DNA from: a virus
Reading direction: 5' to 3' (one strand)
Length of the DNA stretch: 54,267 bases
Virus record (IMG/VR): IMGVR_UViG_3300049893_000997
Location: 1 to 54,267 of that record
The position numbers were made by a program, and so were the translations under genes. Below are positions 12,376 through 45,262 of the stretch, one piece after another. The notes beneath the pieces were generated by a model that worked only from the letters and a program-made list of their open reading frames with translations, had not been told where the DNA came from and did not search any database. The first letter of the stretch is position 1. Each line of letters starts with the position of its first letter.

Positions 12376-15114
12376 ATGTCTTTAAAAGTTGCTAATAGGG
12401 TTAAGGAATCCACTTTAACATCTGGCAATGGAACAATTGCTCTTGCTGGAGCATTGAATGGATATCAATCCTTCTCTTCCGTGTTGTCTAATGGTGACAC
12501 TACCTATTATACCATCGTTAATAACAATAATTGGGAAGTTGGTATAGGAACATATTCTTCTGGAACTCTTTCTAGAGACTCTATACTATCTAGTTCGAAT
12601 CTCAATAATAAACTTAGTCTATCTGGACAGAGTTTTGTTTTTATAGCTTATCCATCAGAGAAAAGTATCTATAAAGATCAAAATGATCAAGTAATAGCAG
12701 GATCTTCTGGAATTATAATAGATTCTGGGAATCCATCTAATATTTCAAATGTACTATACAACATAAGCGGAATCCTTCATTTTAATGGATTTCCAGTAAA
12801 TAGCGATCCTGATGTTGTAGCTCAAGCAACCGCTTTAGTAACAACGGTTTTTAATAGAACATCCTCACCGATACCAAAATTTACTGTTGTTTATATTAGT
12901 GGCGGTCAGGGAGATTTGCCGACCATAACTCCTGCGATAGCTAGTATTGAATCTAAATCTAGTAAAACATATGGCGTAACTCAGAATATTATTCCAGCAA
13001 TGGATAGTGGACATATCGTATCGTATGGAAATATCACCGGAGTTAATACTGACGCCTACAATATTAATGCTCCACACGGTGATATTAATGGTAGAGTATT
13101 GTATTTAAGTCCAACAGTTTCTGGTGGACTAACAATTGATAAACCTTATGCTCCAGACCATTTAGTTGCGATAGGTACAGTTATCCGAACGCATCAAAAT
13201 GTTGGTATTTTTAATGTTAGGATTCAGAATGGATTCGAATTAGAAGAACTACATAATGTTGCGACCACAGGAGCAATTAGTGGACAGTTTTTGAAATATG
13301 ATGGATCGTTATGGAGAAATACCGGAATACTTAGTTCTGATATATCTGACCTACTCTCAACAATTAGCGGAGTCTCTACTAATAATATTTCTATAACTGG
13401 GGTTAGTGGTATCAACGTTAGTAAAAGCGGGAACTCATACACTATATCTGCCACAGGCTCATTTGGATTAACTTCAACTCAAATTCAGCAATTATTAAAT
13501 AGCGGCGTTTCAGCAAATATACTCTCTGGTACTGGTAATTTTAATTCGCTATCTGTAAATAGCGTTTCTATTAGTCTTAGTGGGCATACGCATACATCTT
13601 CTCAAATCACAGACTTCAATAGCAGCGTTAGTGGTCTACTTCCCTCTGTAAGTGGCAGCGGATACGTTCGATCTATATTTAGTAACAATGGGTACATAAT
13701 CAGTGTATCTGGGCTACAAACTAGCGGTAATTATAGCTTAGTAGGACACTCCCATACCACATCTGATATTTCAAATTTTAATACCGGGGTAAGTGGATTA
13801 TTAACACAATATGCCTTATTGTCTAGTGGCAATTTTGCCAATCTATTTGTTACGGGCGTGCCGGTTAGCTTGAGCGGCCATACACACATTAGTTCACAAA
13901 TAACAGATTTTAATAGTAGTGTGAGCGGTTTGCTTGCAATAAGGAGCGTGTCTGGTTCTGGATATGTTATAGTGTCTTCTAGCGGTGGTAATTATATCAT
14001 CTCGGTTTCCGGCTTACAACAAAGTGGAAACTATTCCTTAGTTGGACATAATCATACAACTGCCGATATAACCAATTTTAATACAGGCGTTAGTGGACTC
14101 CTTCCTGTGACAAATATACTTGGAAGCGGAAATACAAGTGTTGTTCAAAATGGAACAACTTTTATAATTAGTTCTTCCGGCACAGGAACTTCATCTTCTG
14201 GATTGACGCAGCAACAAGTACAGTCTTTTTTAAATAGCGGAGTTAGTATCTATATTACTAGCGGCACAGGCTTATTCAATAGTTTGAGCATTAATGGAAC
14301 GGGGGTTAGTGTTAGTGGACATAAACATGTTTCTACGGATATAACAGATTTTAATTCTTCTGTTAGCGGATTAATTCCAATAACTGGTGTTGTCGGTAGT
14401 GGCTACGTTGTGGCAACAAATATCAATAAGACTATTACGTTGTCAATTACCGGCCTACAGCCAAGCGGTAACTATAGTTTGGTGGGCCATAATCATATAG
14501 CTACGGATATCACTAACTTTAATAGTTCTGTTAGTGGATTATTGAATCCTTATGCTTTATTAAGTAGTGGCAATTTTTCTTCTTTGTTTATAACTGGAGT
14601 TCCGGTTAGTTTAAGCGGTCATACGCATACTAGTTCGCAAATAACAGACTTTAATACAGCGGTAAATAATCAAATAACTGTAAAAAATGTTAGTGGAAGT
14701 GGCTATGTCTCTATTGCATCTATTACTGGAAATTATATTGTTTCGGTTACTGGTTTGCAACCCAGTGGTAATTATAGTATTGTTGGTCATACTCACGTTT
14801 CTAATGACATCACCAATTTTAATACTTCTGTTAGTGGACTTTTACGAGTTACTAATATAATAGGATCAGGATCTATTTCAGTTACTTCTAGCGGTTCAAC
14901 TTTTATTATTTCCTCTACTGGAACTGGGGGTGGTGGAGGGGGCGGCGGATCAACAGTTACAAATTATGGATCAAATAGAGTATTAGTTTCTGATGGAACT
15001 CCTAGCGGAATTTCCGCACAGTCTGGACTAGTATTTGATGGCAAGAATTTGTTTGTGAATGGTGTAAACATAAGCAATGCTAGTAAGATTTTTTTGTGGT
15101 CAACATATAGATAA
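12376..15114 (+). CDS. Repetitive fibre protein with HxH motifs
   Basis: This 912-residue fibre protein has an N-terminal part (about 1-340) that resembles fibre attachment domains, followed by long Ser/Gly/Val-rich β-repeats. Eight copies of a 'GHxHxxxxITxFN' motif (for example GHTHTSSQITDF) run from residue 403 to 807, alternating with 'SGSGYV...ISVSGLQ.SGNYSLVGH' units. In T4 gp37, HxH motifs bind metal along the trimer axis, so a metal-stabilised trimeric shaft is plausible. A run of eight glycines near 14930-14950 separates a short C-terminal domain (YGSNRVLVSDGTPSGISA). It lies between capsid and neck genes rather than after the tape measure, so it may be a head or neck fibre. ATG 12376 has an AAGGA RBS. 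Confidence 0.82.
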   Translation: MSLKVANRVKESTLTSGNGTIALAGALNGYQSFSSVLSNGDTTYYTIVNNNNWEVGIGTYSSGTLSRDSILSSSNLNNKLSLSGQSFVFIAYPSEKSIYKDQNDQVIAGSSGIIIDSGNPSNISNVLYNISGILHFNGFPVNSDPDVVAQATALVTTVFNRTSSPIPKFTVVYISGGQGDLPTITPAIASIESKSSKTYGVTQNIIPAMDSGHIVSYGNITGVNTDAYNINAPHGDINGRVLYLSPTVSGGLTIDKPYAPDHLVAIGTVIRTHQNVGIFNVRIQNGFELEELHNVATTGAISGQFLKYDGSLWRNTGILSSDISDLLSTISGVSTNNISITGVSGINVSKSGNSYTISATGSFGLTSTQIQQLLNSGVSANILSGTGNFNSLSVNSVSISLSGHTHTSSQITDFNSSVSGLLPSVSGSGYVRSIFSNNGYIISVSGLQTSGNYSLVGHSHTTSDISNFNTGVSGLLTQYALLSSGNFANLFVTGVPVSLSGHTHISSQITDFNSSVSGLLAIRSVSGSGYVIVSSSGGNYIISVSGLQQSGNYSLVGHNHTTADITNFNTGVSGLLPVTNILGSGNTSVVQNGTTFIISSSGTGTSSSGLTQQQVQSFLNSGVSIYITSGTGLFNSLSINGTGVSVSGHKHVSTDITDFNSSVSGLIPITGVVGSGYVVATNINKTITLSITGLQPSGNYSLVGHNHIATDITNFNSSVSGLLNPYALLSSGNFSSLFITGVPVSLSGHTHTSSQITDFNTAVNNQITVKNVSGSGYVSIASITGNYIVSVTGLQPSGNYSIVGHTHVSNDITNFNTSVSGLLRVTNIIGSGSISVTSSGSTFIISSTGTGGGGGGGGSTVTNYGSNRVLVSDGTPSGISAQSGLVFDGKNLFVNGVNISNASKIFLWSTYR

Positions 15115-23380: not shown

Positions 23381-24214
23381 ATGGCTAAGAAAGACGAAAA
23401 GCGGTTCACTTTTGAAAATAAAGACTATGTAATTCGCCCAATTAGTGCTTCTAGTGCGGTAGAAGCCCAGAAGGTTTATAACAGGACATTCAAGCGTGCT
23501 ATCGAAGAGGGTGCTATTCTGAAAAAGAGTCTTGAGGACCATATGCGTCGTCAAGGTTTGTGGGATGATGCGAAGCAAGAGGAGTATGAGAATTTGCTAA
23601 AGAAGAGTGCGGATATCGAGTACAAGATCAAGACCGGAGAATATAAGAAAGCTTCTCAATTAAGAGAAAAGGGTATTGAACTCAAAAGACTTCGCAACGA
23701 ACTCTCTTCTTTATTGCTTGTTCGAAACTCAATGGATAGTAATACCGCCGATGGACAAGCAGATAATGAGCGATTTTTCTATCTGATTACCGCGTGTGTA
23801 TATGATTATGAAACTCAAAAACCGGTGTATACATCGCTGGATGATTATCATGAAAAATCAGAAACAGAACTAGCACTAAAGTGTGCTTCCGAGTTTGCTA
23901 ATTATGCATATGGTCTTGAAGAGAATTTTGAAGATTCTCTAATAGAGAATAGGCTTCTTAAAAAACTAGGACTGCTCAATGATAAAGGTCAATTAACAAA
24001 CAAGCACGGTCAGCGGGTTGATCTTGACGGCAACCTTCTTAATGAAGAGGGTTCTAGAATTGACAAGGATGGTAATCGTATAGACATCAATAATAATCCT
24101 GTTATAGACGATAGCGTTATTGACAATTTGCAATTTGAAGATGATCTGGAGGAAGATACTGTAGAGGAAAAGCCAGTTAAAAAGAAGGCTCGCCCGGTAG
24201 AAACCAAAGAATAA
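23381..24214 (+). CDS. Tail-assembly or structural protein with D-x-D-G-N repeats
   Basis: This 277-residue protein lies directly before the tape measure. Its N-terminal part (KRFTFENKDYVIRPISASSA, then VEAQKVYNRTFKRAIEEGAI) and helical middle (KASQLREKGIELKRLRNELS, NSMDSNTADGQADNERFFYL) match a family I recall from large marine phages. Residues about 195-240 form short repeats of the 'DGNxxDxxG' kind (for example DLDGNLLNEEGSRIDKDGNR), which resemble acidic calcium-binding loops. The tail is Glu/Lys-rich. A tail-assembly chaperone or minor structural role is inferred. ATG 23381 has a GGGAGGA RBS. Confidence 0.6.
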   Translation: MAKKDEKRFTFENKDYVIRPISASSAVEAQKVYNRTFKRAIEEGAILKKSLEDHMRRQGLWDDAKQEEYENLLKKSADIEYKIKTGEYKKASQLREKGIELKRLRNELSSLLLVRNSMDSNTADGQADNERFFYLITACVYDYETQKPVYTSLDDYHEKSETELALKCASEFANYAYGLEENFEDSLIENRLLKKLGLLNDKGQLTNKHGQRVDLDGNLLNEEGSRIDKDGNRIDINNNPVIDDSVIDNLQFEDDLEEDTVEEKPVKKKARPVETKE

Positions 24215-24225
24215 GGTAATTTACA

Positions 24226-27200
24226 ATGGCTTATGATCTTTCTATGCAGATTAATTTGCAGAAACCATCACCCACCAATCTCACAGAAATTAGAAATTCT
24301 ATAGAGAAGGGACTAAAGGGCATTAATGTTGGTGCTGCAATAAGAAGTGCTACCGCCGGAAAACCAATAAAAATTCCGATTACGCCTACTGTATTTAAGA
24401 AAGACATTGATAGTATCAAGCAATCAATAGCTCTCGGTTTAGGGAAAACCCCCTTTTCCGTTGGCATAAAAGCTTCGAAGCAGGATGTAAAAACTATTAG
24501 AAGCTTTATTCAGAGTGGAATTGGCACAATACCAATAACTACAAAAATCTTCAAAAGCAATGTTACTGATATTCGTAAAACAATAATAGGTAAGATTGGT
24601 GTTGTGCCAATTACTATCAAGGTATTCAACTCCAATATTAAGCAGATTAGGCAACAAATTCAAGCTGGTTTGCAAAATATTACGGTTAGTGTTAACACTA
24701 CCGGTGCTGGAGGGGCTGGAGGCGGTAGCGGACGAGGAGGACGCGGCGGTGCTGGAGGTGCCGGAAGAGGTGGTGGCGGGGGTGGTATTGGCCGACAGGC
24801 CGCGGGCATATCACAGAGTTTAAGGGATGCTACGGATAGTGGTAATTCATTTTTTGATGCAATTACTGGCAAGGCACGTAGTTTTGCGGCATATGCTGTG
24901 GCTAGTACCGCTATTTTGAAACTTAGTGGGGCGGTTTCCAATGCAACAAACGAGGCGATTAAATATGAAAAGGAATTGATCAATATCGCACAAACTACCG
25001 GAGATTCTATAGAAAGAACCAAGTCTTTTTCTGATGCGTTAGTAGATATATCCACAAAGTACAATGTAAACCTGAGCCAAGTTGCAAAACTAACAAGAAC
25101 TCTAGCACAGGCGGGTCTTAGTTTTTCGGAAGCCTCAAAGGGTGCTGAGATTCTTGCTAGAACAAGTTTGCTCGCTGGCTTTGATAGTCTTACCAGCACA
25201 ACAGAAGGTTTAATTGCGGTAATGTCCACCTTCAATCTTACCGTGACTAGTGCGGGTAAGGTTCTTGAGTCGATCAACGCAGTATCCAAAGCATACGCGG
25301 TTGAGTCAACCGACCTTGTAGAGTCTATTAAGCGAACCGGTGGTGCATTTAGTGTTGCTGGCGGAACAGTAGAAGAACTTATTGCTTTAATTACCGCTGT
25401 ACGATCAACCACGCGAGAAAGTGCTGAAACTATTTCTACTGGTTTCAGAACAATCTTTGGTCGTTTGCAAAGACCCAAGACAATTGAATACTTTAAGAAG
25501 CTTGGTATCGAATTAGAGGACGCGGAAGGCAAGTTCATCGGACCATATCAATCAATTATTGCCATTAATAAGGGACTGGAACAGCTAGGAATTACTACTG
25601 GAACAGTAAAATTTGCAGAAGTTGTCGAACAAATTGGTGGTATTCGTCAAATTAGCAAGGTGGTTCCTCTATTAACACAGACTAAAAAAGCCCAAGAGGC
25701 TTTAAATGTAGCTAATAATGCTAGTGAGGAGAGCATTAAGGACTTGGAAAAGGCACAACAAGGTCTTGGATATAAACTTGGTACATTACAGAAAGAGTTT
25801 GCAGCATTGATTTCGGAAGTTGTAGACTCTAAAGGATTTAAGACTCTGGCCGATATCTTTATCGGTTTATCAAAATCTGTAATACAGTTCACAAGCACTC
25901 TTAAGCCACTAATGTCAGCATTAGCACCTATTATGGGTGCAGTTGCTGGTAGAGTATTAGGACAGAGTTTACAAGGCAAAGGATTTTCTGAAACTTATGG
26001 TAGTGGTAGAGCGGCGGCTCGACGTAGAAACAGAATTCAAGGCAGAATGAGTAATATTGGTGGATTGGGCGGTGCTGCTGGACCATATGCGACCTCACAG
26101 CAACAGGATGTAGCAAATTTTTATCAAAACCAACTTAATGCCATCCCCGCATCAAGAAGAGGTCGTCGCAGATACGCATCTGGTGGAACGGTTCCAGGAA
26201 GCGGTAGCGGAGATACTGTTCCGGCTATGTTAACTCCTGGCGAGTTTGTGATTAATAAGAAATCCGCACAAGCTATTGGTTATAGCAATCTTGCGAAAAT
26301 CAATAAATACGCCGATGGAGGTTTAGTCGAAGGAAAAACTACAAAAGAAGCATACTTATATCATGCATCGAATTCAGGCAAAGATAACCGAGTGATAGAA
26401 TCCTTATTAAAGGGAGGGGCAAGGTCCGATATTGCACATGGATATGGGCAAGGTTCTGGATTCTATTTATATACTAATGTACAAAAGGCATATGATCACG
26501 CTCTTGGACTATCAGACCCTACTGCACTGACGGGAGCAGAACAAGGGGGGAAACCGTTTGTCGCATGGTTTGTCGAAAAACTTACTCCAAAAAGGTGGAA
26601 TCTTGATTATGAGTATAATAGTCCATTAGTTACAAAATGGATTACAGATAATTATGATCAACTGAAACGGTATCTGGAGGGACAAAAAATTGATCATCCA
26701 GAATTTCCATCACAATTGCCAGCAATCACAGTCAAGGGAATTACGCAACAGAATAAAGGAATTTCTCTTGAGGTTGCTGATAAATCTGGAAGAACACAAC
26801 TAGATGAAGTTTTATCGAATCAATCGGGCAATGTAAAAACTGGACGATATTTAGGTCAAATTATCAGTCATTTAAGAAATAATGATCCGAATATAGTTTA
26901 TAATTTTGAAGGATGGGCTCTTGAGAATGTTGCAGAGAAAAAATTCAAAAGTGATATCAAAGGAATTAAATATGTTGGTAAAGAACCATTAAAGCCGTTT
27001 TCAATTCAAACATATGATGAAGCAAATGACTTTTGGAGGACAGTAAAAAATGATGATTGGAGTCTATCAAAATTTGCTAAAGGAGGTGCTGTTGGTACAG
27101 ACACTGTGCCCGCTATGTTAACTCCCGGCGAGTACGTTATCAATAAAAAATCCGCACAAGCTTTTGGATATGGAAATCTTGAAAAGGTGAATAGGTATGC

Positions 27201-30200
27201 TAAGGGAGGGATTGTATCCGGGGTACAAAAATTTGCCGAAGGAGGTTCTGTTAAACGGTCTTGGATGGAATTTTTTGGATTCACAAAATCAAAGAACCCC
27301 ATGCAAGATGATCTAAGCCAAGGCGGTGGAGAATTAATACATACATTTGATGATCTTAAAAAGGCTGTAGAGTCTGTAACAGCAGATATGGGTGATGCAG
27401 GAAAAGAAATTCTTAAGCAAATAAAACTAAGTGTGCGGCCAGCTATTATTAATGGACGTTTATTTGCGGGTGCTTTTAGACCTAGTACTGGAAAAATAGA
27501 TGCAACCCCCGGAAGGGCTGATCAGGTTGTAGCCGCTCATGAAGTTGGACACGCCTCGGATTATCTTATGGGAGGAAGTAGACCTGGGACAGAAAGATTT
27601 CCTCTTGTTGGAAGAGTAGGAGCAGAAAGATATGCTAGTGGACAACAGGGAACTCTACAAAACAAACTAGCAAAAGCTGCTCAACAAAGAATGTATATAG
27701 AATTAAAGGCTAGGGGTGCATCAGAAAAAGAAATACAACATAGATTAAATCTACAAGAAGTTTATGCTGATTTATTCTCAAAAAGTAAGCCCGCCGTTCG
27801 TGCAATCTTGGCTAGTACAACAAACGCACGCGAAGGAATGAAGCAGTTAGCCGATTTATTGGAAAATGAACCAGAACAATACAATAGACTGTTTATGGGA
27901 ATAGAGAATGATATTCCCTCGCTACGCAAAGCTCGTAAAAGAGGTTTGCAGGCACTTCAAGACGCGGCTATTGGAGCAGAGATAGAAAAAGAGAAGCAAC
28001 TAGAGGCCGCTAAACAGGCCGCAGCCGCTGCGGAAGAAGCAAAAAGGCAAGCGGCTATTTCCGAGAAGGCAGAAAAGGATAGGCAGCGAGCTTTAGAAAT
28101 TGAGAGAAAGAATAATGTTAAGCGATTAAGATCAGAAGGAACAATCACAGGCAAGCGGGCTAAAGAGGGTTTGCAAACAGAAGAGTCAAAAGCCATTGGC
28201 GGTCAAATCAGAGAAGAAAGTCAAAGGATACAAACTTTATCAAAGACTAAATCGGATGCTCAAAGTAGAGTGGAACAGTTGCCCAAAACGCTAGAAAGTC
28301 TAAAAGCGAGCGTTCAAACCGGCGTTTTAAGTCAACAAAGATACAATCAAATTGCTAAACAAACTCAAGCACAGATTAGAAAAGAACAAGAATTAATCAC
28401 TAAGATTGATCAACAAATCACAGAATCTGAAAAAAATAGAGCCGAATTACGTAATCAGTATAAAGCATCACAGCAGAAGTCTAGAGGTTTATTATATTCA
28501 GCCTCAAATGCACCCCCAAATCTTCCTAAAGGTGGTGGCCCTGGCGGTCCCGGCGGTCCCGATGATCCGGGTGGCGGACCTGTAGGCTCTTTCTTAACAA
28601 CAATTGGCAATATAGATAAACAGATGCGGAAGCTAAACATCACTTTTATTGAAATGGCGGTATATGCACAAACATTTGCTTCTACATTTGGTTCAGCAAT
28701 ATCTCAATTTTTTGAAGGTGACTTCAAACAAGAAGTATTATCCGCAGCCACAGCAAGGGGTGGTGTTTTATCAGCTACTGGAGAAGCGGCCGAAGCGGCA
28801 CTTTCAAGAAAGAATGCGTTTTTAACTGGTAAAGCCCTGGGTAAACTTCCGGGCGGGCTTGGTAGATTTGGTCAGGCTATATCAAATAATGCTGGCCGCA
28901 TAGCCGCCGCCGGTAAAGCTTTTGGTAGAGCTTTTGATATCTTCGCTAAAGTAGAGTTGGTTGGTGGATTATTTGATGCGATTCTTAGTGTTAACTATGC
29001 TGCTCAACGCGACAAGTTTATTCAATTAGGTGACGCAAGCAAAGCGGCGGAAGCGGCCACAAGGGCATATGCTCAAGAACAACTAAGAGCTATTCCTATT
29101 CTTGGTGGATTTATATCGGGCCTAGGTGGAGGTATGAACGCCACCGAAGAAAATCTAGATTCTCTTGGAAGATTGGTTGTGGGAAATGCTAGATTAGCAG
29201 CGTCTGTGATCAATAGCCAAAAAGAATTTACTCGACTATCTAATGCTTTGGACGAAGCTCGTTCTTCGAACGATGGGGGTGCCGCGAAGGAGATTATTGG
29301 TAATCAATTAAAATCAATTGAAAATCTAGACGCTCAAGCTTTCGATCTATTCCGTCAGGCTCAAATGGGTGCTAAGACTAATAAGAATGCTCCGGGATAC
29401 ACCGGTGCGGGTATGGGTATTGGTGGCACATTAGGATCCATAGCGGGCGGTGTTGCTGGTAGTTTTGTAGGAGGACCGGCAGGAGCAGCAGGGGGTGCTG
29501 CATTAGGAGGAAAGATTGGAACAGCGGTCGGGGGATTTGTCGGCCTTGGTGTTGGAGCGTATATGGACTCTCAAGAAAATAAGGCAAAAATAGCAGAAAG
29601 CTATCAAGTTCAAATTGATGCTATCAAGCAAAGTTCGCAAAATCAAATCAATATGATTAAAGATGTATCCGCTTCCTTAAAGAGCGAGTCAGCAAGAATT
29701 ATAGATGCGGGCGGTTCATATGAGGACGCATTAAAGAATATTGCGGATAGAGTTGGCGGTAAGGATATCTTGACAAAGATTATGGCAGGAGAAGAATTGA
29801 CGGGTGATATACAAAAAGATCTTGAGGCGTTAAGAGCCCAACGCGATGCTGGTCAAAAAAGGATTGACACGCTCAAAGCAGAAAAAGCCACTATAAAAGA
29901 TTCGGATAAAGTGGCTGTTATGGCAAAAGAACGAGAAATTCAATTGGCTCAGGTACGTTTAGATGCAGTTGATACTATTGAAACGGAACTACAGACTATT
30001 CAGTACAATAATATTCAGCAAGAAAGATTGCTAGAAAGAAGAAAAGTAGAGTCTGCGGCTATTAAAGAACAGATAAGAATCATGAAACAATTAGAAACCG
30101 CTTATGATGGCTTTAATGCTACCATGAGGGATATTAACGATACCGTTGAACAAATGGGTAATGTTGGAACCGGAAGATTATCCACGAGAAGGGCCGCATC

Positions 30201-31950
30201 CAGAGTGGGCATAGATGATTCTAGAATGTTTGAGATGAGTCCACAAGAAATAATGAGAACTCCAGAAGTTGCTACCGCAATGGCAACATATGCGACAGCG
30301 GCTGGTGCTCCCGGAGGAGAAATTAATCGTGCGTTGATTAGTGTAGACCAACTAAATAGATTGAATAAATTTGCTGAAACAAAAGAGTTTCAGCAATTAA
30401 GACAGAGTGCTGTTGAAGGAGAAAATAGACCATCTGCACAAGAACTTGAAAAAGATATTATGGACTTATTTGGTTTCGATGAGAGTAATCCTATCATAAA
30501 AAATGCTATTAGAACATATGCTGAAAGATTACTTTCTAATTCTGATGATGTTGCTGGTGCTGGACAAGCGGCCAAGGAGGAAGCCGAGAAACAGGCTATT
30601 GAGATTATCTCTAGACAGCAAGAAAAGTTTAAGGAGTTGATTCAAACGGAGCAAAAGTACCGCGAGGGTCAAATTGAATTAATTAACCGCAGAGCGGAAG
30701 ATGCTAAGAGGGTGTACGAGGCCGAGAAAGAATATTTCGATGAGAGGCTATCACTTAATACTAAGGTAAGAGAAGCTTTACAAATTGAGCCTGCTGGTCC
30801 GGGACGATCCTCATTCTTACAAACGCAGGCCGCAAGCAACAGAGCGGCCAGAATGGGCAATCTATCTGCCAATAGGGGCAGATTGGGGATAAGGAATGTT
30901 GATGAATCTATCAATAACGTATCTAGACTAATGGAATTTGGCAAAAGGGCCGCGGAACAGCAAGCGGCAGAAAAGGGGGAGCCGACCGGCATTAGTGATA
31001 TAATGCCGGGACTCAAAAATGACTTAGAAATTCTACAACAAACTATTAGAGATGAAATAGATATCCAAAATCAATATCTTGATGGTCTTATTGATAGTGC
31101 CAAAGCACAACAAGAATATACTCAGGCTTTGTATGATGCTCAGGGGGCTATAGTAAGAGATTTAGTTACTGGCACAGACGAAGACGTTGCTAAACAACTA
31201 AGAGGTTTGAATGCAGCAGCAATTGCTTCTATGCAGGGCAGTTTTGCTGGAGTGCCAGAAGATTTGAAACAAGAAGTATTTAGTATATTTGATCAATTTG
31301 CAGATATCGAGATTCCTGGACTTGGTAAGACTGGCAGACAAGCACAAAGAGAGATAACTAAAAATGAAATGATGAAGCGATTTGGTGTTGATGCTGCCAC
31401 AGCGGAGCAGTTAGCAAGCAAGGCCGTTCAAGACCGCGTACCAATAGATCAACGCATGGCCGATCAGATTGAAAATCAAAGAAAGATTGTTGAAGGATTA
31501 ATTACTAAAGAACACGACATGAAACAAAAACAAATTGAAATGGAAATATCTAATACTACTATATTTGGACAGCACGTAGATAGGCTGGGTATACGAGTTG
31601 ATCAATTAATTAATGAACTGGGAATGAGTCGTCAAAATTTCACAAATCCTCCACAACAAATTCCAGATAATGTTCGACCTATGAATAATATGGCCCAAAA
31701 TGTACCCGCCGCATCAAATCAACCTATTCAACTTGTTACTAATGGACAGCAAGAATTTACTTTAAGATTACCAGATATGCAGATGGCTGTAAATCAAGCT
31801 ATTACTAGCACAATCTATGATGCTATATCTACTAAATTCAAAAATCTGGCCGATGGTATAAGGACCGCAAATAATTTTGAAGATGCAGCGAATATTATAC
31901 AAACCGCCGCATCCCAAACGGAAACTCTTAATATAGGAGGACAGGTATAA
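24226..31950 (+). CDS. Tape measure protein with embedded enzyme-like domains
   Basis: This 2574-residue protein sets tail length and leads the DNA during ejection. Residues about 1-155 contain repeated short β/α units. A Gly/Arg-rich linker follows at about 160-195. Residues 200-600 are the conserved tape-measure core (ISTKYNVNLSQVAKLTRTLA, TVEELIALITAVRSTTRESA, TISTGFRTIFGRLQRPKTIE). A 39-residue motif (DTVPAMLTPGEFVINKKSAQ...) occurs at 663-701 and again at 959-997. Between the copies lies an ADP-ribosyltransferase-like segment, and an HExxH metallopeptidase-like segment follows at about 1025-1225. Then come long coiled coils, a glycine-zipper hydrophobic stretch at about 1726-1785 that could insert into a membrane, and a helical C-terminus. 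Size and place, after the chaperone-like genes and before the distal tail genes, confirm the role. Confidence 0.93.
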   Translation: MAYDLSMQINLQKPSPTNLTEIRNSIEKGLKGINVGAAIRSATAGKPIKIPITPTVFKKDIDSIKQSIALGLGKTPFSVGIKASKQDVKTIRSFIQSGIGTIPITTKIFKSNVTDIRKTIIGKIGVVPITIKVFNSNIKQIRQQIQAGLQNITVSVNTTGAGGAGGGSGRGGRGGAGGAGRGGGGGGIGRQAAGISQSLRDATDSGNSFFDAITGKARSFAAYAVASTAILKLSGAVSNATNEAIKYEKELINIAQTTGDSIERTKSFSDALVDISTKYNVNLSQVAKLTRTLAQAGLSFSEASKGAEILARTSLLAGFDSLTSTTEGLIAVMSTFNLTVTSAGKVLESINAVSKAYAVESTDLVESIKRTGGAFSVAGGTVEELIALITAVRSTTRESAETISTGFRTIFGRLQRPKTIEYFKKLGIELEDAEGKFIGPYQSIIAINKGLEQLGITTGTVKFAEVVEQIGGIRQISKVVPLLTQTKKAQEALNVANNASEESIKDLEKAQQGLGYKLGTLQKEFAALISEVVDSKGFKTLADIFIGLSKSVIQFTSTLKPLMSALAPIMGAVAGRVLGQSLQGKGFSETYGSGRAAARRRNRIQGRMSNIGGLGGAAGPYATSQQQDVANFYQNQLNAIPASRRGRRRYASGGTVPGSGSGDTVPAMLTPGEFVINKKSAQAIGYSNLAKINKYADGGLVEGKTTKEAYLYHASNSGKDNRVIESLLKGGARSDIAHGYGQGSGFYLYTNVQKAYDHALGLSDPTALTGAEQGGKPFVAWFVEKLTPKRWNLDYEYNSPLVTKWITDNYDQLKRYLEGQKIDHPEFPSQLPAITVKGITQQNKGISLEVADKSGRTQLDEVLSNQSGNVKTGRYLGQIISHLRNNDPNIVYNFEGWALENVAEKKFKSDIKGIKYVGKEPLKPFSIQTYDEANDFWRTVKNDDWSLSKFAKGGAVGTDTVPAMLTPGEYVINKKSAQAFGYGNLEKVNRYAKGGIVSGVQKFAEGGSVKRSWMEFFGFTKSKNPMQDDLSQGGGELIHTFDDLKKAVESVTADMGDAGKEILKQIKLSVRPAIINGRLFAGAFRPSTGKIDATPGRADQVVAAHEVGHASDYLMGGSRPGTERFPLVGRVGAERYASGQQGTLQNKLAKAAQQRMYIELKARGASEKEIQHRLNLQEVYADLFSKSKPAVRAILASTTNAREGMKQLADLLENEPEQYNRLFMGIENDIPSLRKARKRGLQALQDAAIGAEIEKEKQLEAAKQAAAAAEEAKRQAAISEKAEKDRQRALEIERKNNVKRLRSEGTITGKRAKEGLQTEESKAIGGQIREESQRIQTLSKTKSDAQSRVEQLPKTLESLKASVQTGVLSQQRYNQIAKQTQAQIRKEQELITKIDQQITESEKNRAELRNQYKASQQKSRGLLYSASNAPPNLPKGGGPGGPGGPDDPGGGPVGSFLTTIGNIDKQMRKLNITFIEMAVYAQTFASTFGSAISQFFEGDFKQEVLSAATARGGVLSATGEAAEAALSRKNAFLTGKALGKLPGGLGRFGQAISNNAGRIAAAGKAFGRAFDIFAKVELVGGLFDAILSVNYAAQRDKFIQLGDASKAAEAATRAYAQEQLRAIPILGGFISGLGGGMNATEENLDSLGRLVVGNARLAASVINSQKEFTRLSNALDEARSSNDGGAAKEIIGNQLKSIENLDAQAFDLFRQAQMGAKTNKNAPGYTGAGMGIGGTLGSIAGGVAGSFVGGPAGAAGGAALGGKIGTAVGGFVGLGVGAYMDSQENKAKIAESYQVQIDAIKQSSQNQINMIKDVSASLKSESARIIDAGGSYEDALKNIADRVGGKDILTKIMAGEELTGDIQKDLEALRAQRDAGQKRIDTLKAEKATIKDSDKVAVMAKEREIQLAQVRLDAVDTIETELQTIQYNNIQQERLLERRKVESAAIKEQIRIMKQLETAYDGFNATMRDINDTVEQMGNVGTGRLSTRRAASRVGIDDSRMFEMSPQEIMRTPEVATAMATYATAAGAPGGEINRALISVDQLNRLNKFAETKEFQQLRQSAVEGENRPSAQELEKDIMDLFGFDESNPIIKNAIRTYAERLLSNSDDVAGAGQAAKEEAEKQAIEIISRQQEKFKELIQTEQKYREGQIELINRRAEDAKRVYEAEKEYFDERLSLNTKVREALQIEPAGPGRSSFLQTQAASNRAARMGNLSANRGRLGIRNVDESINNVSRLMEFGKRAAEQQAAEKGEPTGISDIMPGLKNDLEILQQTIRDEIDIQNQYLDGLIDSAKAQQEYTQALYDAQGAIVRDLVTGTDEDVAKQLRGLNAAAIASMQGSFAGVPEDLKQEVFSIFDQFADIEIPGLGKTGRQAQREITKNEMMKRFGVDAATAEQLASKAVQDRVPIDQRMADQIENQRKIVEGLITKEHDMKQKQIEMEISNTTIFGQHVDRLGIRVDQLINELGMSRQNFTNPPQQIPDNVRPMNNMAQNVPAASNQPIQLVTNGQQEFTLRLPDMQMAVNQAITSTIYDAISTKFKNLADGIRTANNFEDAANIIQTAASQTETLNIGGQV
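26212..26328 (+). repeat. In-frame direct repeat flanking a tape-measure cassette (copy 1)
   Basis: This encodes residues 663-701, the 'DTVPAMLTPGEFVINKK' motif common in tape measures. Copy 2 begins 888 bases downstream. The two 39-residue segments are identical at 31 positions by my alignment and also similar at the DNA level, so they could recombine. Confidence 0.75.
26338..27060 (+). other. ADP-ribosyltransferase-like segment inside the tape measure
   Basis: Residues 705-945 of the tape measure. The opening YLYHASNSG, with H713, and then GQGSGFYLYTNVQKAYDHAL, with Y747, resemble the histidine and 'G.GFY.t....A..yA' motifs of H-Y-[E/x] ADP-ribosyltransferase folds, including small phage and bacterial families of the DUF3990 type. 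The third catalytic position is not clear. By eye, 17 of 22 glycine codons are GGA or GGG and 3 are GGT, whereas the flanking core at 24841-25640 uses GGT for 12 of 23. That shift suggests separate acquisition. Enzyme activity is inferred, not shown. Confidence 0.5.
27100..27216 (+). repeat. In-frame direct repeat flanking a tape-measure cassette (copy 2)
   Basis: This encodes residues 959-997, the second copy of the 39-residue motif (DTVPAMLTPGEYVINKKSAQ...). Together with copy 1 it brackets the ADP-ribosyltransferase-like segment. Confidence 0.75.
27301..27890 (+). other. Zinc metallopeptidase-like segment inside the tape measure
   Basis: About residues 1026-1222. H1105-E1106-x-x-H1109 in VVAAHEVGHASDYL is a zincin active site. 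E1178 in NLQEVYADLFSK, about 70 residues later, has the spacing and 'ExxAD' context of the third ligand in gluzincin-like peptidases. Glycine codons here are mostly GGA, unlike the core of the gene. The substrate is unknown; cell-wall peptides, a host envelope protein or the tape measure itself are possible. Confidence 0.65.
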
Positions 31951-39238: not shown

Positions 39239-42200
39239 ATGGCTTTTATTAACAAGACAACGGACCCCAAGTGCTACGAATGTGGTAAGCAATGCATTAA
39301 TGTGGAGTTCTGTTCCGCTGGTGCTAGTTACGACTTGGATGATGTGGGAACTCAAGGAGTTTCTTTATCACGAAATATTCGTGTATCAATTAAGGCTAAT
39401 CCGGAATTTTGGGGATTTAGCGGGGTACTGATTTCAGGATGGGCTACATACTCTAATGGTTATTACGATTATTTTGATGGATTTGATGAAGATCATCAGT
39501 CCACGAAGGTATGTAATTCTGTAACCTATGGGCCATTCTTAAATGAACAAAGGCCAGACGTTTTTTATCGGTCGGTATACGATCCGGATACGGGGCTAAC
39601 CTCTCACTATGGTTCTGATGGCTCTTTAGAAAGTAGCGGAATTGGGCGGGGAGGTGCTGAAGTTTATTTGGTGAATAGAGCTAAATCTTTGGTTAAATCC
39701 GTATCAGCAGACAATAAATCATGCTTGAGTAGCGATCCAACTCAATCATTTCGTAGATTTCCAGAGAATTTTGGCTGGGGCAATAAAATCAACTTTAATA
39801 CAAAGATCTTCAAAAATTTAAGCGGTGCCTGGAGATTAACTAGTTTAGAAAATTGTCACGCCGCCTCTAATCTTTATGATCCACCAGGATATCTAGTCGA
39901 TTGCTCTGGAAATGAAAAACAGAATATAAGCAGCCAAGAAAATCGTTATGGTTATTATGAGCCATCTAGAGTAAGAGCTTCTGGCTCATCTTCTTATTAC
40001 AAATATTCTTCCGGATGCTATCCGGACGGTGCTGTAGCGGGAAGATATGCGGGTTATTTTCCAGACTCAAGTAGCATTTTTCGATCCAATGCTTCATCGC
40101 CATTTGTTCAGGCAAGATTATCTTATGGCAGTTTAGATAATCCAATTGCGGCGAGCGGCCTGCGTAATGGAATGACTATAGGTATTAAAAATGATGTTAG
40201 CGGTATAGTCAATAATGTTTATGTGATTTTCGATGTTGTTCATTCCTCAACATATACTTCTGTTAAATTTGTTGGAACATCAACTGGAAATATTTCTTCT
40301 GCACTACCAACCGGCGACTTCTCCCTTAATGTAGGCAAGAGTGGGCATTGGGTTGCGTTTGATACCTATGATCCACAAACTTGTTGCGGTCTGAGTGCTT
40401 ATGGAATTTCGGATACCAATAAGCAGTTTGGCAACGAAAACAATTATCATACTGACTTTCGTAGAGTATTCAATAATCCAAAGAATCTTCTTCAATCAAA
40501 TCGAGATAGAAACTGGAGATACAACTATCATCTTTTTGATCCCATTGCTTATATTACTGGGGTATCTTCTACATCTGGTAGACTAGATTTTACTTATGTA
40601 TCTACTAGTGGTGGATATGGAGTTCTGAAAAATGTTAGTGGAATAATTGTTGCTAGTGGGTCTGGATATCCAGCGTTTGATAAAGAGTTATCATATTATG
40701 GTAATTTCTTTGAAACGGATAAATATGATGCCTTGATGAGATTGGATCAGGCAATTAATCGAGGTAAATCTAATAATGCTACGTGCTACAGCAAACATGC
40801 TACTTTAGAAGTTTTTCCAGACTGTATAACACAATATGACAAGTATAATGATTGTGATAATGTTGAGCAATATATAACTAATCAAGTGCCAAGATTAGCG
40901 TTCGTATATCGAGGATGTGATTTTAATGATGATTGCTCTTTCGATAGTAGCGGACTGCCGCTTGGTGGATGGAAAAATCAAGGAGGAGTTCCCACAGGAA
41001 TTAATGATCTAAAAAGGCAATTGGCGGGTCAAGAAATACATATGTTTATCAACCTCGCTGATGCTTGGGGAGGAAGAAAAGCGTTAAATCCCTGTAGGTG
41101 CGATTGCAATGGTTCTATTCCAGGATATGCTGAACCAGACCATGTTACAATTAGAAGTCCAATTACTTTTCCTTCTTTTCCAAATTTTGATCTTAATCCG
41201 ACTATTTATGGATGTCAAGATCCAAGATATCAGATAACACATAAAAGGTTGGAACTTGGTGGATCTATTCCGAGTACTGGGATATGTGATGCGTTTCCAA
41301 CATCTTCTAATGCTTGTTTACCAAAACAACCATATGTAACGTATGGCTATATCATGAATTTGTGTGGTAAGCAAAGTAAAAATAGACGGGATGTTATATC
41401 GGAAGCGTTTGCTAAATTACATCAAGACAAAACTTATACAAATGCTAATCCTACTGGCAATATTACTGAACCAATGTATTGGAATATTGTTGCTCCATCG
41501 GCTTTGCCGTTTGGTGGCCGTTTGTGGTCCAGTGGCACAACAGCAAGAGATGATTCTGGTGGTACATTTATTCAAGTGGCGGGTAGCGGATATGGATTTT
41601 GGGGCGTATCGGATACGAATAAGCAGGTGGTGGCCCCTTATTTTTGTACACAGCAGGGAAGATCGATTTGCTGCGAATCTACAGGAACATTCGTAGATTT
41701 TAGTCTTAGCGGAACACTGTCTCGCGTTTTGGGAACCAGTAATGGTTGGCCCACATCGTCAACACCATTTTTAATTGAATTTGAGGTTGAAGATACTTGT
41801 GGCGGTTGCGTTTCAACAAGAATGAATCCAACATCTTTGAATTTGGAAATTCAGGGACTGAGTACAGATTTTGTTTGGCAGCAGTCTACTACTAGATATG
41901 GTCATAATTACTGTACTTATGGAACGTCTACCTCTACAGCAAAAGCAAAGGTAGAAAAGCCAGGGTTTACATGTTCTAGTGGATTTGATACCTCTATTTG
42001 TGGAACAGGCGATAATTTTGGAGCAATTTATGGAAATTATTATACTGGAAACACATGCTCGTGTGTTAACGGATTAAACGTAACTCTTTCGCCCGTATTG
42101 GCATCGGGCACTAATGATGTGATTATTGGCTGGACTAGTAATTCAATCGGTGGTGCGGCGGGCCTTACAGAACTATCTGGATGTAATGATTTAACTAGTG

Positions 42201-45200
42201 CATTCTTAGATCAAACATATAACCGCGGAGAAGGTTTTGGTTATACTCCGTCTCAAGGATGCGGATACAGAGTTTTTGCTCAATTTGATTTAGCATGTGA
42301 TGGAATGCATGGATTTTTAGCAAAACCATATGCTCCAGACATTTACTATACAAGCGATCCGATATCTACGTTATGGTCAAATATTACTAATTGCTCTCAT
42401 CATTATCCGGCCAGAGTGGGCACAAATGGTGATCTTGATCTTAAAACAACATTGTATTTAGTAACTGAGCAAAATGTTGATATTTTCAAAAAGCTAACCG
42501 ATAAAGGCTTAAAAGAAAAGAATCTGGAGTCTTCGTGTATCACTTTAAGTGATTTTACTTCTGTAAATAATCCATTTGGTATTTGTCCTGGAGAAAAAGT
42601 TTATACATACGGTTGTAACCTGGGCTCGGTCTTTTATGGATGTACCGCTTCTGGCGGGTATGGTCCAACAGAATATTTACAATGCACGGGCAATAGTTTA
42701 TGTAATACCTGTCCTACTGGATCTGCCAGCGGTGAAGTTACATGCTCTTGCGGTGCGGCAATTGGTTACGAAGGAAATTTAACCAGAAGAGTACCAGCAA
42801 ATTATCAACTAAATGAGTGTTTTTGTGAATGTAAAGATCCATCTTTAATTGCTGAGTATACACTTACCAGTACCGGCTTGGTTCTAGTATCCGGGGCTAG
42901 TGCGGCATGTGCAGAGGTTTATTGGGTTTCCACCGATAAAACAGGAATGGTTTTGATAAACTGTGTACCCCCACAGCCCTATCTTGGGAAAAAACTATTT
43001 ACTAATGTTGGTTCTACGGACTGGTATGATTGGAGTCATGGTGTTAATGGAGTTGTTAGTGGCGTTAAGTATGATCTAAATTATCCATTTCTTAATACTG
43101 AGGAGTGCAATAATCTCAGAAGATATCCATTTACTTCATTAACATCGTTCGGAAATAGTGCCACAAGAATAGATTGCACCAGTTCTGATTGTGCGTTTGA
43201 TAATAATGTATATTCAAAAACATGTGGCGATCCGATTTATTCTAGTGGAACATTTAATGGCGTTCGCGTTAGAAAGAAAAAGTGTCATCCAGAAGTTGCT
43301 ATTGTTAATAAGATCGAGTGCCTTGGCAATAGTTACAAACTTTATATTTCAAGAGAATATCATGAACATGATAGAACGTGGGAAGAAGTACTAACGGTTG
43401 GAGATAGTACTATTTGTTCGCCAGTTAATGCTGGTGCGTATCTATATAATTATGGTAGCGGGGTTTCAGGATGTCAACAAATTAACTATGCACTTTTAGC
43501 AGATACAGTTACTCCAGCCTCCGATTCTCCTTGTAGTATTCATCCATCTTCTGGAACATATGTGAATCAAGACTATCAATATAACTTATCATCATTTCCA
43601 TCCGGATCGCGTATCTGGAATTACTTTAATCTGTTTTATTCCAGTTCTTATCTACCAACGGTCAGTAATGGTAGACTGATCGCGTCGATGTCTAGAACAA
43701 GCGGCATTTTTAGTTGTAGCGGAACTCCATTGCCGATAATAAATAGCAGCACTATTTTTACAACCGGCGAATATAACACTCCTGTTGGCTTTAATGGCAT
43801 TTTTGCAACCAATAAAAAACATAGTTGCGTTCAAGATTCTACGGTTTGTGGTGGTGAATTGTGGTGTAACAAATTATTCTTTCCTAGACACAGTTACAAA
43901 ACTGGAACTAGAATTGCACCATTTGGATCTCCTTCTATTTGTACCAGAACAAATGAATTCAAAAATGCATTCAATTTAGACGGATATGAAGAGGGGGGCA
44001 GCACCATAGACGGAGGTAAAACTTTACTTGATGAGCAAAGATTAAGATTTTTTGATTGGTGCAATGATAGTTTAATACAGGAGTCTTTACAAGATATTGG
44101 AATCGATGATACATACATTATTGTTGAAGACTATCTCCCGTTGATAGGAGTTGTTCATCCAGGATGGAGATTTACTTCTGATACTAAAAGTTGTACATTT
44201 GGTGGAACTGGATGTATCGATATTTTACCAACGCATAGCAACAATTCTATATTAGCTGGAGTTCATCAGCCCAAAACTTTTGCGGATAATGGATTTGAAT
44301 CAATGGGATATTATCTCGATAAGTTTGGTGCATCTTATGCTAATTCAGGATTGGTACGAGCGAGTGGATCGGATCAGTGCTTATTTAATCCATTTAAGAT
44401 TCTCATCGACGTAGAATGTTCATTAAATAGGATAGCTAGGAGAGATTTTCCATCAGATTCACCAACATATTTACACGGTGTTCAATCATGGTCGCCGGGT
44501 GCGTGTTTGGGTATGCTTGGTGATCCTCCGTGTTCGTGCGGCGACACAAACTGTGCATCTGCCTCTATTATGAAACAAGGGGAATGTGTCGGATTTCAGT
44601 TAACATCATACGATGCCACACTTGCCAGCGGAACATATTGGTATTGTCCAAGTGGAGCGTCATGTAGCGGGTGTTCTCTGAATGGGTGCGTGGAGCAAAA
44701 TGGTCAATATATACAGCTTGGTACTCCAGTAGGAAAATACTTTCATCCATCAGTTTTAGAATCTTTTACGCCAGTGGGAGTATTGTCTTCTACTCCTCAA
44801 ATATGTTATTGTTCCAGCGGCAGCGGCACGACCTCCGGTGTTTATACTTATGCCACAGCGGTTCCCTCCGGTCAAGTATGGAAAAAGAATACATGTGATG
44901 GCAAATTATATCAAGTAAGTACTTCTGGATTAACATATGTGCGTAGATTCACATGCACCAGTAATCAATACCTAGCAAAAGGACCGGCACAGGCAGCGAG
45001 TGCCAATCAAGGTTCACAATGTCAATGTGAATCTAATATTGCTGATGGAATCTGTGATTCTCAATATAGATGCATAGATTTTACTAGTTGTTCATGCCAG
45101 CCGGTCGGCATAGCATCGCAATTGGTGCCCACTATCTCCACAATGGGAACAGGAGGTAGTGGAATATGGTGGTCCACAGACTGTGGGTGCGAAGGCACAC

Positions 45201-45262
45201 CAAAAGCTGCTAGGGAATGCTCTCAGGATTCATTGATTGAGTGGGAGATTACAGAGAGTTAA
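39239..45262 (+). CDS. Giant cysteine-rich tail-tip protein
   Basis: This 2007-residue protein is the last gene of the rightward operon. I count about 93 cysteines, spread from the N-terminus (KCYECGKQCINVEFC) to the end (GICDSQYRCIDFTSCSCQPV). They include CxC, CxxC and CC pairs. Tyr, Ser, Gly and Asn are also frequent and β-structure dominates. No catalytic motif is recognised. Its place after the hub-like proteins fits a tail spike, tip or receptor-binding protein. The cysteines could bind many metal ions or form disulfides after release from the reducing cytoplasm. ATG 39239 has a TAGGAA RBS. The stop at 45262 touches the end of the leftward operon. Confidence 0.7.
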   Translation: MAFINKTTDPKCYECGKQCINVEFCSAGASYDLDDVGTQGVSLSRNIRVSIKANPEFWGFSGVLISGWATYSNGYYDYFDGFDEDHQSTKVCNSVTYGPFLNEQRPDVFYRSVYDPDTGLTSHYGSDGSLESSGIGRGGAEVYLVNRAKSLVKSVSADNKSCLSSDPTQSFRRFPENFGWGNKINFNTKIFKNLSGAWRLTSLENCHAASNLYDPPGYLVDCSGNEKQNISSQENRYGYYEPSRVRASGSSSYYKYSSGCYPDGAVAGRYAGYFPDSSSIFRSNASSPFVQARLSYGSLDNPIAASGLRNGMTIGIKNDVSGIVNNVYVIFDVVHSSTYTSVKFVGTSTGNISSALPTGDFSLNVGKSGHWVAFDTYDPQTCCGLSAYGISDTNKQFGNENNYHTDFRRVFNNPKNLLQSNRDRNWRYNYHLFDPIAYITGVSSTSGRLDFTYVSTSGGYGVLKNVSGIIVASGSGYPAFDKELSYYGNFFETDKYDALMRLDQAINRGKSNNATCYSKHATLEVFPDCITQYDKYNDCDNVEQYITNQVPRLAFVYRGCDFNDDCSFDSSGLPLGGWKNQGGVPTGINDLKRQLAGQEIHMFINLADAWGGRKALNPCRCDCNGSIPGYAEPDHVTIRSPITFPSFPNFDLNPTIYGCQDPRYQITHKRLELGGSIPSTGICDAFPTSSNACLPKQPYVTYGYIMNLCGKQSKNRRDVISEAFAKLHQDKTYTNANPTGNITEPMYWNIVAPSALPFGGRLWSSGTTARDDSGGTFIQVAGSGYGFWGVSDTNKQVVAPYFCTQQGRSICCESTGTFVDFSLSGTLSRVLGTSNGWPTSSTPFLIEFEVEDTCGGCVSTRMNPTSLNLEIQGLSTDFVWQQSTTRYGHNYCTYGTSTSTAKAKVEKPGFTCSSGFDTSICGTGDNFGAIYGNYYTGNTCSCVNGLNVTLSPVLASGTNDVIIGWTSNSIGGAAGLTELSGCNDLTSAFLDQTYNRGEGFGYTPSQGCGYRVFAQFDLACDGMHGFLAKPYAPDIYYTSDPISTLWSNITNCSHHYPARVGTNGDLDLKTTLYLVTEQNVDIFKKLTDKGLKEKNLESSCITLSDFTSVNNPFGICPGEKVYTYGCNLGSVFYGCTASGGYGPTEYLQCTGNSLCNTCPTGSASGEVTCSCGAAIGYEGNLTRRVPANYQLNECFCECKDPSLIAEYTLTSTGLVLVSGASAACAEVYWVSTDKTGMVLINCVPPQPYLGKKLFTNVGSTDWYDWSHGVNGVVSGVKYDLNYPFLNTEECNNLRRYPFTSLTSFGNSATRIDCTSSDCAFDNNVYSKTCGDPIYSSGTFNGVRVRKKKCHPEVAIVNKIECLGNSYKLYISREYHEHDRTWEEVLTVGDSTICSPVNAGAYLYNYGSGVSGCQQINYALLADTVTPASDSPCSIHPSSGTYVNQDYQYNLSSFPSGSRIWNYFNLFYSSSYLPTVSNGRLIASMSRTSGIFSCSGTPLPIINSSTIFTTGEYNTPVGFNGIFATNKKHSCVQDSTVCGGELWCNKLFFPRHSYKTGTRIAPFGSPSICTRTNEFKNAFNLDGYEEGGSTIDGGKTLLDEQRLRFFDWCNDSLIQESLQDIGIDDTYIIVEDYLPLIGVVHPGWRFTSDTKSCTFGGTGCIDILPTHSNNSILAGVHQPKTFADNGFESMGYYLDKFGASYANSGLVRASGSDQCLFNPFKILIDVECSLNRIARRDFPSDSPTYLHGVQSWSPGACLGMLGDPPCSCGDTNCASASIMKQGECVGFQLTSYDATLASGTYWYCPSGASCSGCSLNGCVEQNGQYIQLGTPVGKYFHPSVLESFTPVGVLSSTPQICYCSSGSGTTSGVYTYATAVPSGQVWKKNTCDGKLYQVSTSGLTYVRRFTCTSNQYLAKGPAQAASANQGSQCQCESNIADGICDSQYRCIDFTSCSCQPVGIASQLVPTISTMGTGGSGIWWSTDCGCEGTPKAARECSQDSLIEWEITES

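Follow-up and report, generated by a model that had tools for sequence, protein, structure and literature searches.

The tape measure protein (TMP) encoded by IMG/VR virus record IMGVR_UViG_3300049893_000997, a fragment of 54,267 bases in which the tail gene order is present (the window, taken over its whole length), carries a segment between two copies of a conserved repeat that is supported, through sequence motifs and profile comparison, as an ADP-ribosyltransferase (ART)-like domain of the H-Y type, closest to DUF3990. The place between the repeats, referred to here as the slot, is empty in one close relative and filled by other domains in further relatives, and the view that it holds exchangeable cassettes is well supported by these comparisons. 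The reading favoured here, with a probability of about 0.52, is that the ART-like domain sits in a variable slot, is injected with the tail ruler and modifies a host target. The segment is most likely a virion-carried effector, whose delivery, catalysis, target and release are inferred.

The tape measure protein and its ART-like domain

The TMP is an open reading frame (ORF) of 2574 aa (24226..31950; all features given here lie on the + strand). It was identified through a match to PF10145 (PhageMin_Tail) of 91.9 bits against a cut-off of 33.2, covering residues 272-454 of the conserved N-terminal core (25039..25587), and through matches to PHROG 4211 (E 1e-31) and nine other 'tail length tape measure' families. 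Named phages (the SPbeta group, Rhodococcus phages and others) match the TMP over the core alone, with 21-28% identity, and the SPbeta YomI transglycosylase is among these matches.

Two TPGE repeats, repeat 1 at residues 651-701 (26176..26328) and repeat 2 at residues 951-997 (27076..27216), share a block of the form DTVPAMLTPGE...GG[LI]V, in which 31 of 39 residues are identical, a similarity far above chance. Their TPGE codons lie at 26233 and 27121, 888 bp apart, and the exact coordinates within the TMP bear out the repeat pair as described in the first-pass annotation, an earlier reading of the sequence alone. The slot between them holds 249 aa (26329..27075), with the domain starting at LYHAS (26356), and is described as an ART-like cassette on the strength of homologues in other TMPs, hhalign and an AlphaFold (AF2) model. 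Its first motif, YLYHAS (residues 710-715; 26353..26370), contains the putative NAD-binding His713, a histidine that is invariant in nine sequences; the second, YGQGSGFYLYTNVQ (26434..26475), contains the putative tyrosine of the H-Y pair, and its GYGQGxG form is invariant in the same number of sequences. Both H713 and GSGFYLYT (at residue 743), on which the first-pass annotation had based its call of an ART fold, were found at the places given; the second motif pairs in alignment with DFGQGFYLT of DUF3990.

The window cassette alone has no Pfam match, and single-sequence searches returned no relatives of the domain from viral contigs or from 50,697 named phages; there were likewise none in GTDB genome contigs. 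A first homologue was obtained from the 1062-aa slot of locus L028 (33% identity, E 2e-32), and further scans seeded with the window and L028 pair led to L093-L101. All nine ART-like relatives lie inside TMP reading frames of uncultured phages, and these searches brought up no cultured phage that has an ART in its slot. In L093, L094, L095/L096 (which are of the L028 type), L097 and L098, as in the window, the domain is followed immediately by TPGE repeat 2. Nine cassettes share L[YF]HG[ST]...GYGQGxG[FL][YF], and their alignment (A7) also keeps a FxExLxP...LDYE stretch, a K-Y-x-G...L-x-P end and the histidine of L[YF]H.

DUF3990 (PF13151), which is a member of the Pfam ART clan (PMC7955679), was the sole Pfam family reached by several members (three of five, best E 0.091). 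When a profile of the nine cassettes was compared by hhalign with 25 aligned DUF3990 proteins from GTDB genomes, the probability was 93.6 (P 2e-7, columns 2-57), with 20 column shuffles giving 0.0-2.2 and the reversed profile 0.1. The match pairs LYHgSn...GYGQGaGfYlyT with LYHGSn...DFGqGFYLT, which is the N-terminal H-Y region of DUF3990. Profile searches of the PDB with two and with five ART sequences gave noise only, and a comparison with ART-PolyVal, represented by one sequence only, gave no match.

Structure prediction from the single sequence (residues 690-959) reached a pLDDT of 36.5, too low for use, whereas AlphaFold with the nine-sequence alignment gave a moderate pLDDT of 75.6 and a pTM of 0.73. 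The top PDB match of the resulting model was chain 9k3a_B of the cyanophage A4 pre-ejectosome, another ejected phage protein (E 2e-3, TM-score 0.25), which is too weak for use.

The segment has the lowest G+C content within the TMP (36.0%), and its glycines are encoded by GGT in 3 of 21 cases, compared with 90 of 218 in the other counted parts of the TMP (Fisher P 0.018). This agrees within one codon with the count of 3 of 22 made earlier by eye, but the codon argument that was built on it is not supported. Synonymous codon use of the segment as a whole is ordinary, with 61 of 117 TMP windows lying equally far or farther from the mean, and codon usage was therefore rejected as a sign of foreign origin.

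Exchange of slot contents

The window's own phage group was collected through the 277-aa gene directly 5' of the TMP (23381..24214), which stands in the position of a tail assembly chaperone and may have that function; it shares 58-85% identity across the nine loci found with it. In this group the slot is variably occupied. L004, with a core 72% identical to that of the window, has no repeats and an empty slot, whilst L009 (core 66%) and L011 (58%) carry a different domain of ~160-175 aa between the same two repeats; L008, L010 and L012 are near-identical copies of L009. Further slot domains are found in L245 (core 55%), L242 (53%; two domains in tandem) and L244 (48%). The comparison of homologous TMPs proposed with the first-pass annotation therefore finds the slot occupied by the ART in the window, empty in L004 and filled with at least three other domain types in L009/L011, L242, L244 and L245, and the occupancy of the slot in these six relatives bears out the idea of an exchangeable cassette.

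The mechanism suggested for the exchange, recombination between the repeats, fared less well. The TPGE motif has at least 581 confirmed relatives in the scan of viral contigs and occurs in 145 and 157 named-phage records (Gordonia, Mycobacterium, Synechococcus, Nodularia, Pelagibacter and others), in cyanophages at a T4-gp29-like position, and is a general TMP element. As it is present in hundreds of TMPs, the repeats are not a private pair around the ART-like insert. The slot-domain DNA of L009 and L011 is 93% identical over 420 bp, compared with 72% for the core DNA. In 40-base windows, identity is ~0.7 in repeat 1, climbs to 0.95-1.0 no more than ~30 bases from the 3' end of that repeat, stays at 95-100% for ~300 bases and declines before repeat 2, the repeats themselves being ~72% identical. 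This is a clear recent transfer of a domain without repeats at matching identity. Direct intramolecular recombination between the repeats of the window is not supported.

No recent transfer is visible for the window ART in comparison with its relatives, which are 33-38% identical to it and whose TMP cores are 38-42% identical to that of the window. As the ART relatives have diverged about as far as the cores around them, either old exchange or patchy retention would fit.

A wider survey covered 80 motif-bearing loci and their relatives, among which were 69 distinct TMPs with two repeats and slots of 159-1860 aa. Slot contents were unlike in 58 of the 68 pairs with N-terminal cores at least 70% identical (85%), unlike meaning no BLAST similarity over half of the shorter content. 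A second kind of ART, with R-S-E motifs, was recognised through ADPrib_exo_Tox (PF03496), which exceeded its Pfam cut-off of 23.4 bits in slot domains of L045 (28.0 bits), L092 (26.3) and L060 (29.4); PF01129, also an ART family, was above its cut-off in the L045 slot. These domains lie at L045:5500-6207, L092:5608-6312 and L060:5984-6688, and a further one at L093:5221-5955, not above the cut-off, stands just upstream of the DUF3990-like domain of that locus.

The other types of slot domain, nuclease-like (E...D...DAK), HAD-like, GNAT-like, P-loop and zincin-like, were assigned by motif alone. Most slot domains had no library match, and searches of 63 cassettes with PADLOC, NCBIfam and PHROGs gave nothing useful beyond one weak match to 'RNA polymerase ADP-ribosylase' (E 0.004). 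In the commonest type, E...D...DAK is invariant in 19 sequences, which were picked by a pattern containing those letters; a PDB profile search returned no match for a PD-(D/E)XK relationship, which is a motif-level lead only. DAT or DTT replaces DAK in the nuclease-like domains of L014, L024, L027, L068 and L080, as if catalysis had been lost. A HAD-like domain (D-x-D-R-T-[LI]...IISKSRR...NMIFTQGGSKQPALDAxRxKGPRA) recurs in L014, L015, L019, L036, L042, L058 and L059, 53-82% alike across different core types. A P-loop (GPAGSGKTT) and possible kinase-like segments were seen between TPGE repeats at L055:4645-5139, from L067:4666 onward and at L091:5545-6603. Domain arrays of ~1600-1900 aa stand between the repeats of L093, L094, L097 and L098, the TMP frame of L093 reaching 5886 aa. 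Mini-linkers (GGxIQKFAxGG), seen in several arrays, were considered as cassette delimiters and rejected, being no denser in slots than in the C-terminal flank (0.71 and 0.67 per 1000 aa, respectively). The same TMP architecture was seen in L103, L106, L107, L109, L110 and L112 on GTDB contigs of bacterial metagenome-assembled genomes (SAR202, Verrucomicrobiales, Micavibrio and others), which are probably phage contigs binned with their hosts, or prophages.

A zincin-like metallopeptidase domain, overlooked in the first-pass annotation, follows repeat 2 in the window TMP (residues ~1035-1234; 27328..27927), and is a motif-level call only. It reads HEVGHASD (residue 1105; 27538) and then NLQEVYADLF, with the conserved form E-[VILT]-[FY]-A-[DE]. 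The domain is common to the window, L004, L028/L095/L096 and L110; in L095/L096 it comes after repeat 2, as in the window, and in L110 it stands between two TPGE repeats. Comparison with MPTase-PolyVal (PF18818), using a small set of eight PF18818 sequences, gave an hhalign probability of 2.5, with HExxH alone aligned. The window TMP would hold several unrelated effector-type domains, ART-like and zincin-like, in one polypeptide.

Proposed function and alternative explanations

The TMP fills the tail and is expected to leave it at infection. Because the protein is built into the tail and gets as far as the host inner membrane when the DNA is injected, an ART in the slot would enter the cytoplasm, or be exposed to it, as infection begins and could there modify a host target, in a manner analogous to T4 Alt or to the ARTs proposed for polyvalent proteins (PMC5512222). 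During injection by lambda, the TMP was the sole phage protein robustly labelled with ManZ-TurboID at the inner membrane (PMC13190303), and segments of a TMP can therefore come near inner-membrane and cytoplasmic proteins. The neighbouring zincin may release the ART by cutting the TMP or may act on host proteins, both of which have been suggested for the zincins of polyvalent proteins (PMC5512222), and cassettes would be gained, lost and exchanged between phages. This suggests a second role for the ruler, as a vehicle for proteins that take over the host early in infection.

Several observations weigh against this interpretation. The alignment to DUF3990 is confident over only the first ~57 of ~240 residues, and the best scores against the family are below the cut-off (E 0.091 in a relative and 0.007 in L093), with 12.3 bits in L093 compared with the curated 32.2 bits and none for the window cassette. 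The window reads LYHA where LYHG is usual, and of the catalytic residues H and Y are assigned but the third is not, with glutamates E76, E88 and E187 (A7 numbering) as candidates, none of them proven. The fold search proposed by the first-pass annotation, run with Foldseek on the alignment-based model, gave no PDB or BFVD match at E <= 1e-3; exotoxin A domain III, an ART, was sixth in the PDB list with a non-significant E of 0.28. The ART call made earlier is therefore upheld as a resemblance, through the hhalign probability and through the Pfam-significant ARTs in the same slot elsewhere, rather than as a proven fold. A folded domain of 250 residues may also need unfolding to fit the tail lumen. 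Lastly, the 400 aa after repeat 2 were taken as a control: of 56 pairs with N-terminal cores at least 70% identical, 44 were unlike there (79%, compared with 85% for the slot). This flank varies about as much as the slot does, and the idea that the slot stands alone in its variability was rejected. From these sequence comparisons everything in the TMP beyond its core is a mosaic or evolves fast, the repeats forming conserved islands, and the slot is distinguished by its content rather than by its variability.

It is possible, although unlikely, that the domain is not an ART, and that LYHxS and GxGFYLY belong to some other, perhaps structural, fold resembling the N-terminus of DUF3990. The window sequence has no Pfam match and the model no significant structural match, and the short alignment and unassigned third residue are in keeping with such a fold. 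The profile match, however, lies far above the shuffles and falls precisely at the catalytic motifs, DUF3990 is the lone Pfam family reached by several members, and undisputed ART families occupy the same slot of related TMPs; the exotoxin A catalytic domain is also among the first PDB matches, albeit non-significantly. The insert could instead be near-neutral, a fast-changing spacer, linker or inactive domain tolerated since ruler length is set elsewhere. The variability of the C-terminal flank and the loss of the catalytic lysine (DAT for DAK) in the nuclease-like domains of the five loci listed above would fit this, but the ART motifs stay invariant even where the TMP cores are just 38-42% identical to that of the window, spacer drift would not yield a repertoire of folded enzymes, and a cassette has been exchanged nearly intact between the divergent TMPs of L009 and L011. 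We regard a near-neutral insert as rather improbable.

Two further alternatives concern the place of action. T4 ModA and ModB are ARTs that are active inside the infected cell and are not packaged, and many copies of the TMP are produced, late in infection, so that the ART might act in the producing cell or during tail assembly instead of after injection. Fusion to a packaged ruler would, however, be an odd way of retaining an enzyme, and the repertoire of the slot (ART, HAD-like, GNAT-like, nuclease-like, zincin-like) resembles that of proteins which accompany phage or conjugative DNA into the cell (PMC5512222), making action in the producing cell improbable. Action in the envelope where the phage enters, for instance on membrane or periplasmic proteins, would follow the example of TMP peptidoglycan hydrolases. 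Lytic domains are well known in TMPs, SPbeta YomI transglycosylase being one example, and in Gordonia phages of the Howe group a VanY-like peptidase stands, by motif reading, between such repeats. Against this, an ART requires NAD, which is cytoplasmic, and the GNAT-like, HAD-like, P-loop and nuclease-like slot domains also suggest the cytoplasm; an envelope role for the window domain appears very improbable.

The favoured reading, an ART-like domain injected with the ruler, may extend beyond the window. We tentatively propose, at somewhat less than even odds, a 'polymorphic tape measure', in which the TMP of a large, mostly uncultured group of tailed phages would be a general effector carrier, with exchangeable domains, single or in strings, between two conserved TPGE motifs, and these would be delivered with the genome. 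Its repertoire would comprise ARTs of two kinds and nuclease-like, HAD-like, GNAT-like, P-loop and zincin-like domains, over 159-1860 aa. If this is true, the tail ruler is an effector delivery device that injects host-modifying enzymes at entry, at fixed stoichiometry and before gene expression, and TMPs are tied to injected polyvalent proteins and Alt-type ARTs. The wide size range of TMPs would also be explained, given the span of the slot alone, and the slot would be a natural cargo insertion point in phage tails.

Comparison with described systems

ARTs that are injected, polyvalent proteins and cell-wall hydrolases within TMPs have all been described before; what appears to be new is an internal TMP slot with interchangeable enzymes of apparently cytoplasmic type. 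No description of TMP enzyme cassettes beyond cell-wall hydrolases was found in the literature, most subscription journals lying outside the search. The window domain shares with DUF3990 the N-terminal motif region LYHGS ... (D/Y)(F/Y)GQGxGFYLxT ... A..A, but it scores below the cut-off, is longer (~240 compared with 152 residues), cannot be aligned in its C-terminal half and is part of a TMP rather than a cellular gene. T4 Alt offers the precedent of a virion-carried ART, and its type, PF03496, is found in the same TMP slot of L045, L060 and L092. Alt is, however, a protein in its own right that is carried in the head, whereas the window domain is built into the tail ruler and, being of the H-Y rather than the R-S-E type, falls in another ART subfamily.

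Polyvalent proteins are likewise large, linked to virion genes and built of interchangeable ART, zincin, GNAT and nuclease-like domains, and are thought to be delivered with DNA (Iyer et al., 2017; PMC5512222). Here the carrier is a TMP, the domains stand between fixed TPGE motifs and the zincin did not match MPTase-PolyVal in the small comparison above; the polyvalent-protein paper makes no mention of tape measures (PMC5512222). TMPs with peptidoglycan hydrolase domains also have extra enzyme domains within the ruler, although theirs act on the cell wall whereas the slot domains look cytoplasmic. Polymorphic toxin systems (PMC3482391) share the principle of a conserved carrier with exchangeable effector cassettes, but their carrier is a bacterial secretion protein instead of a phage tail ruler, and their cassettes are C-terminal instead of internal.

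Other features of the window

An ORF of 2007 aa (39239-45262), which lies downstream of the tail genes, has no Pfam or PHROG match. Closer to the start of the window, a 912-aa ORF (12376-15114) bears five Phage tail repeat (PF12789) stretches.

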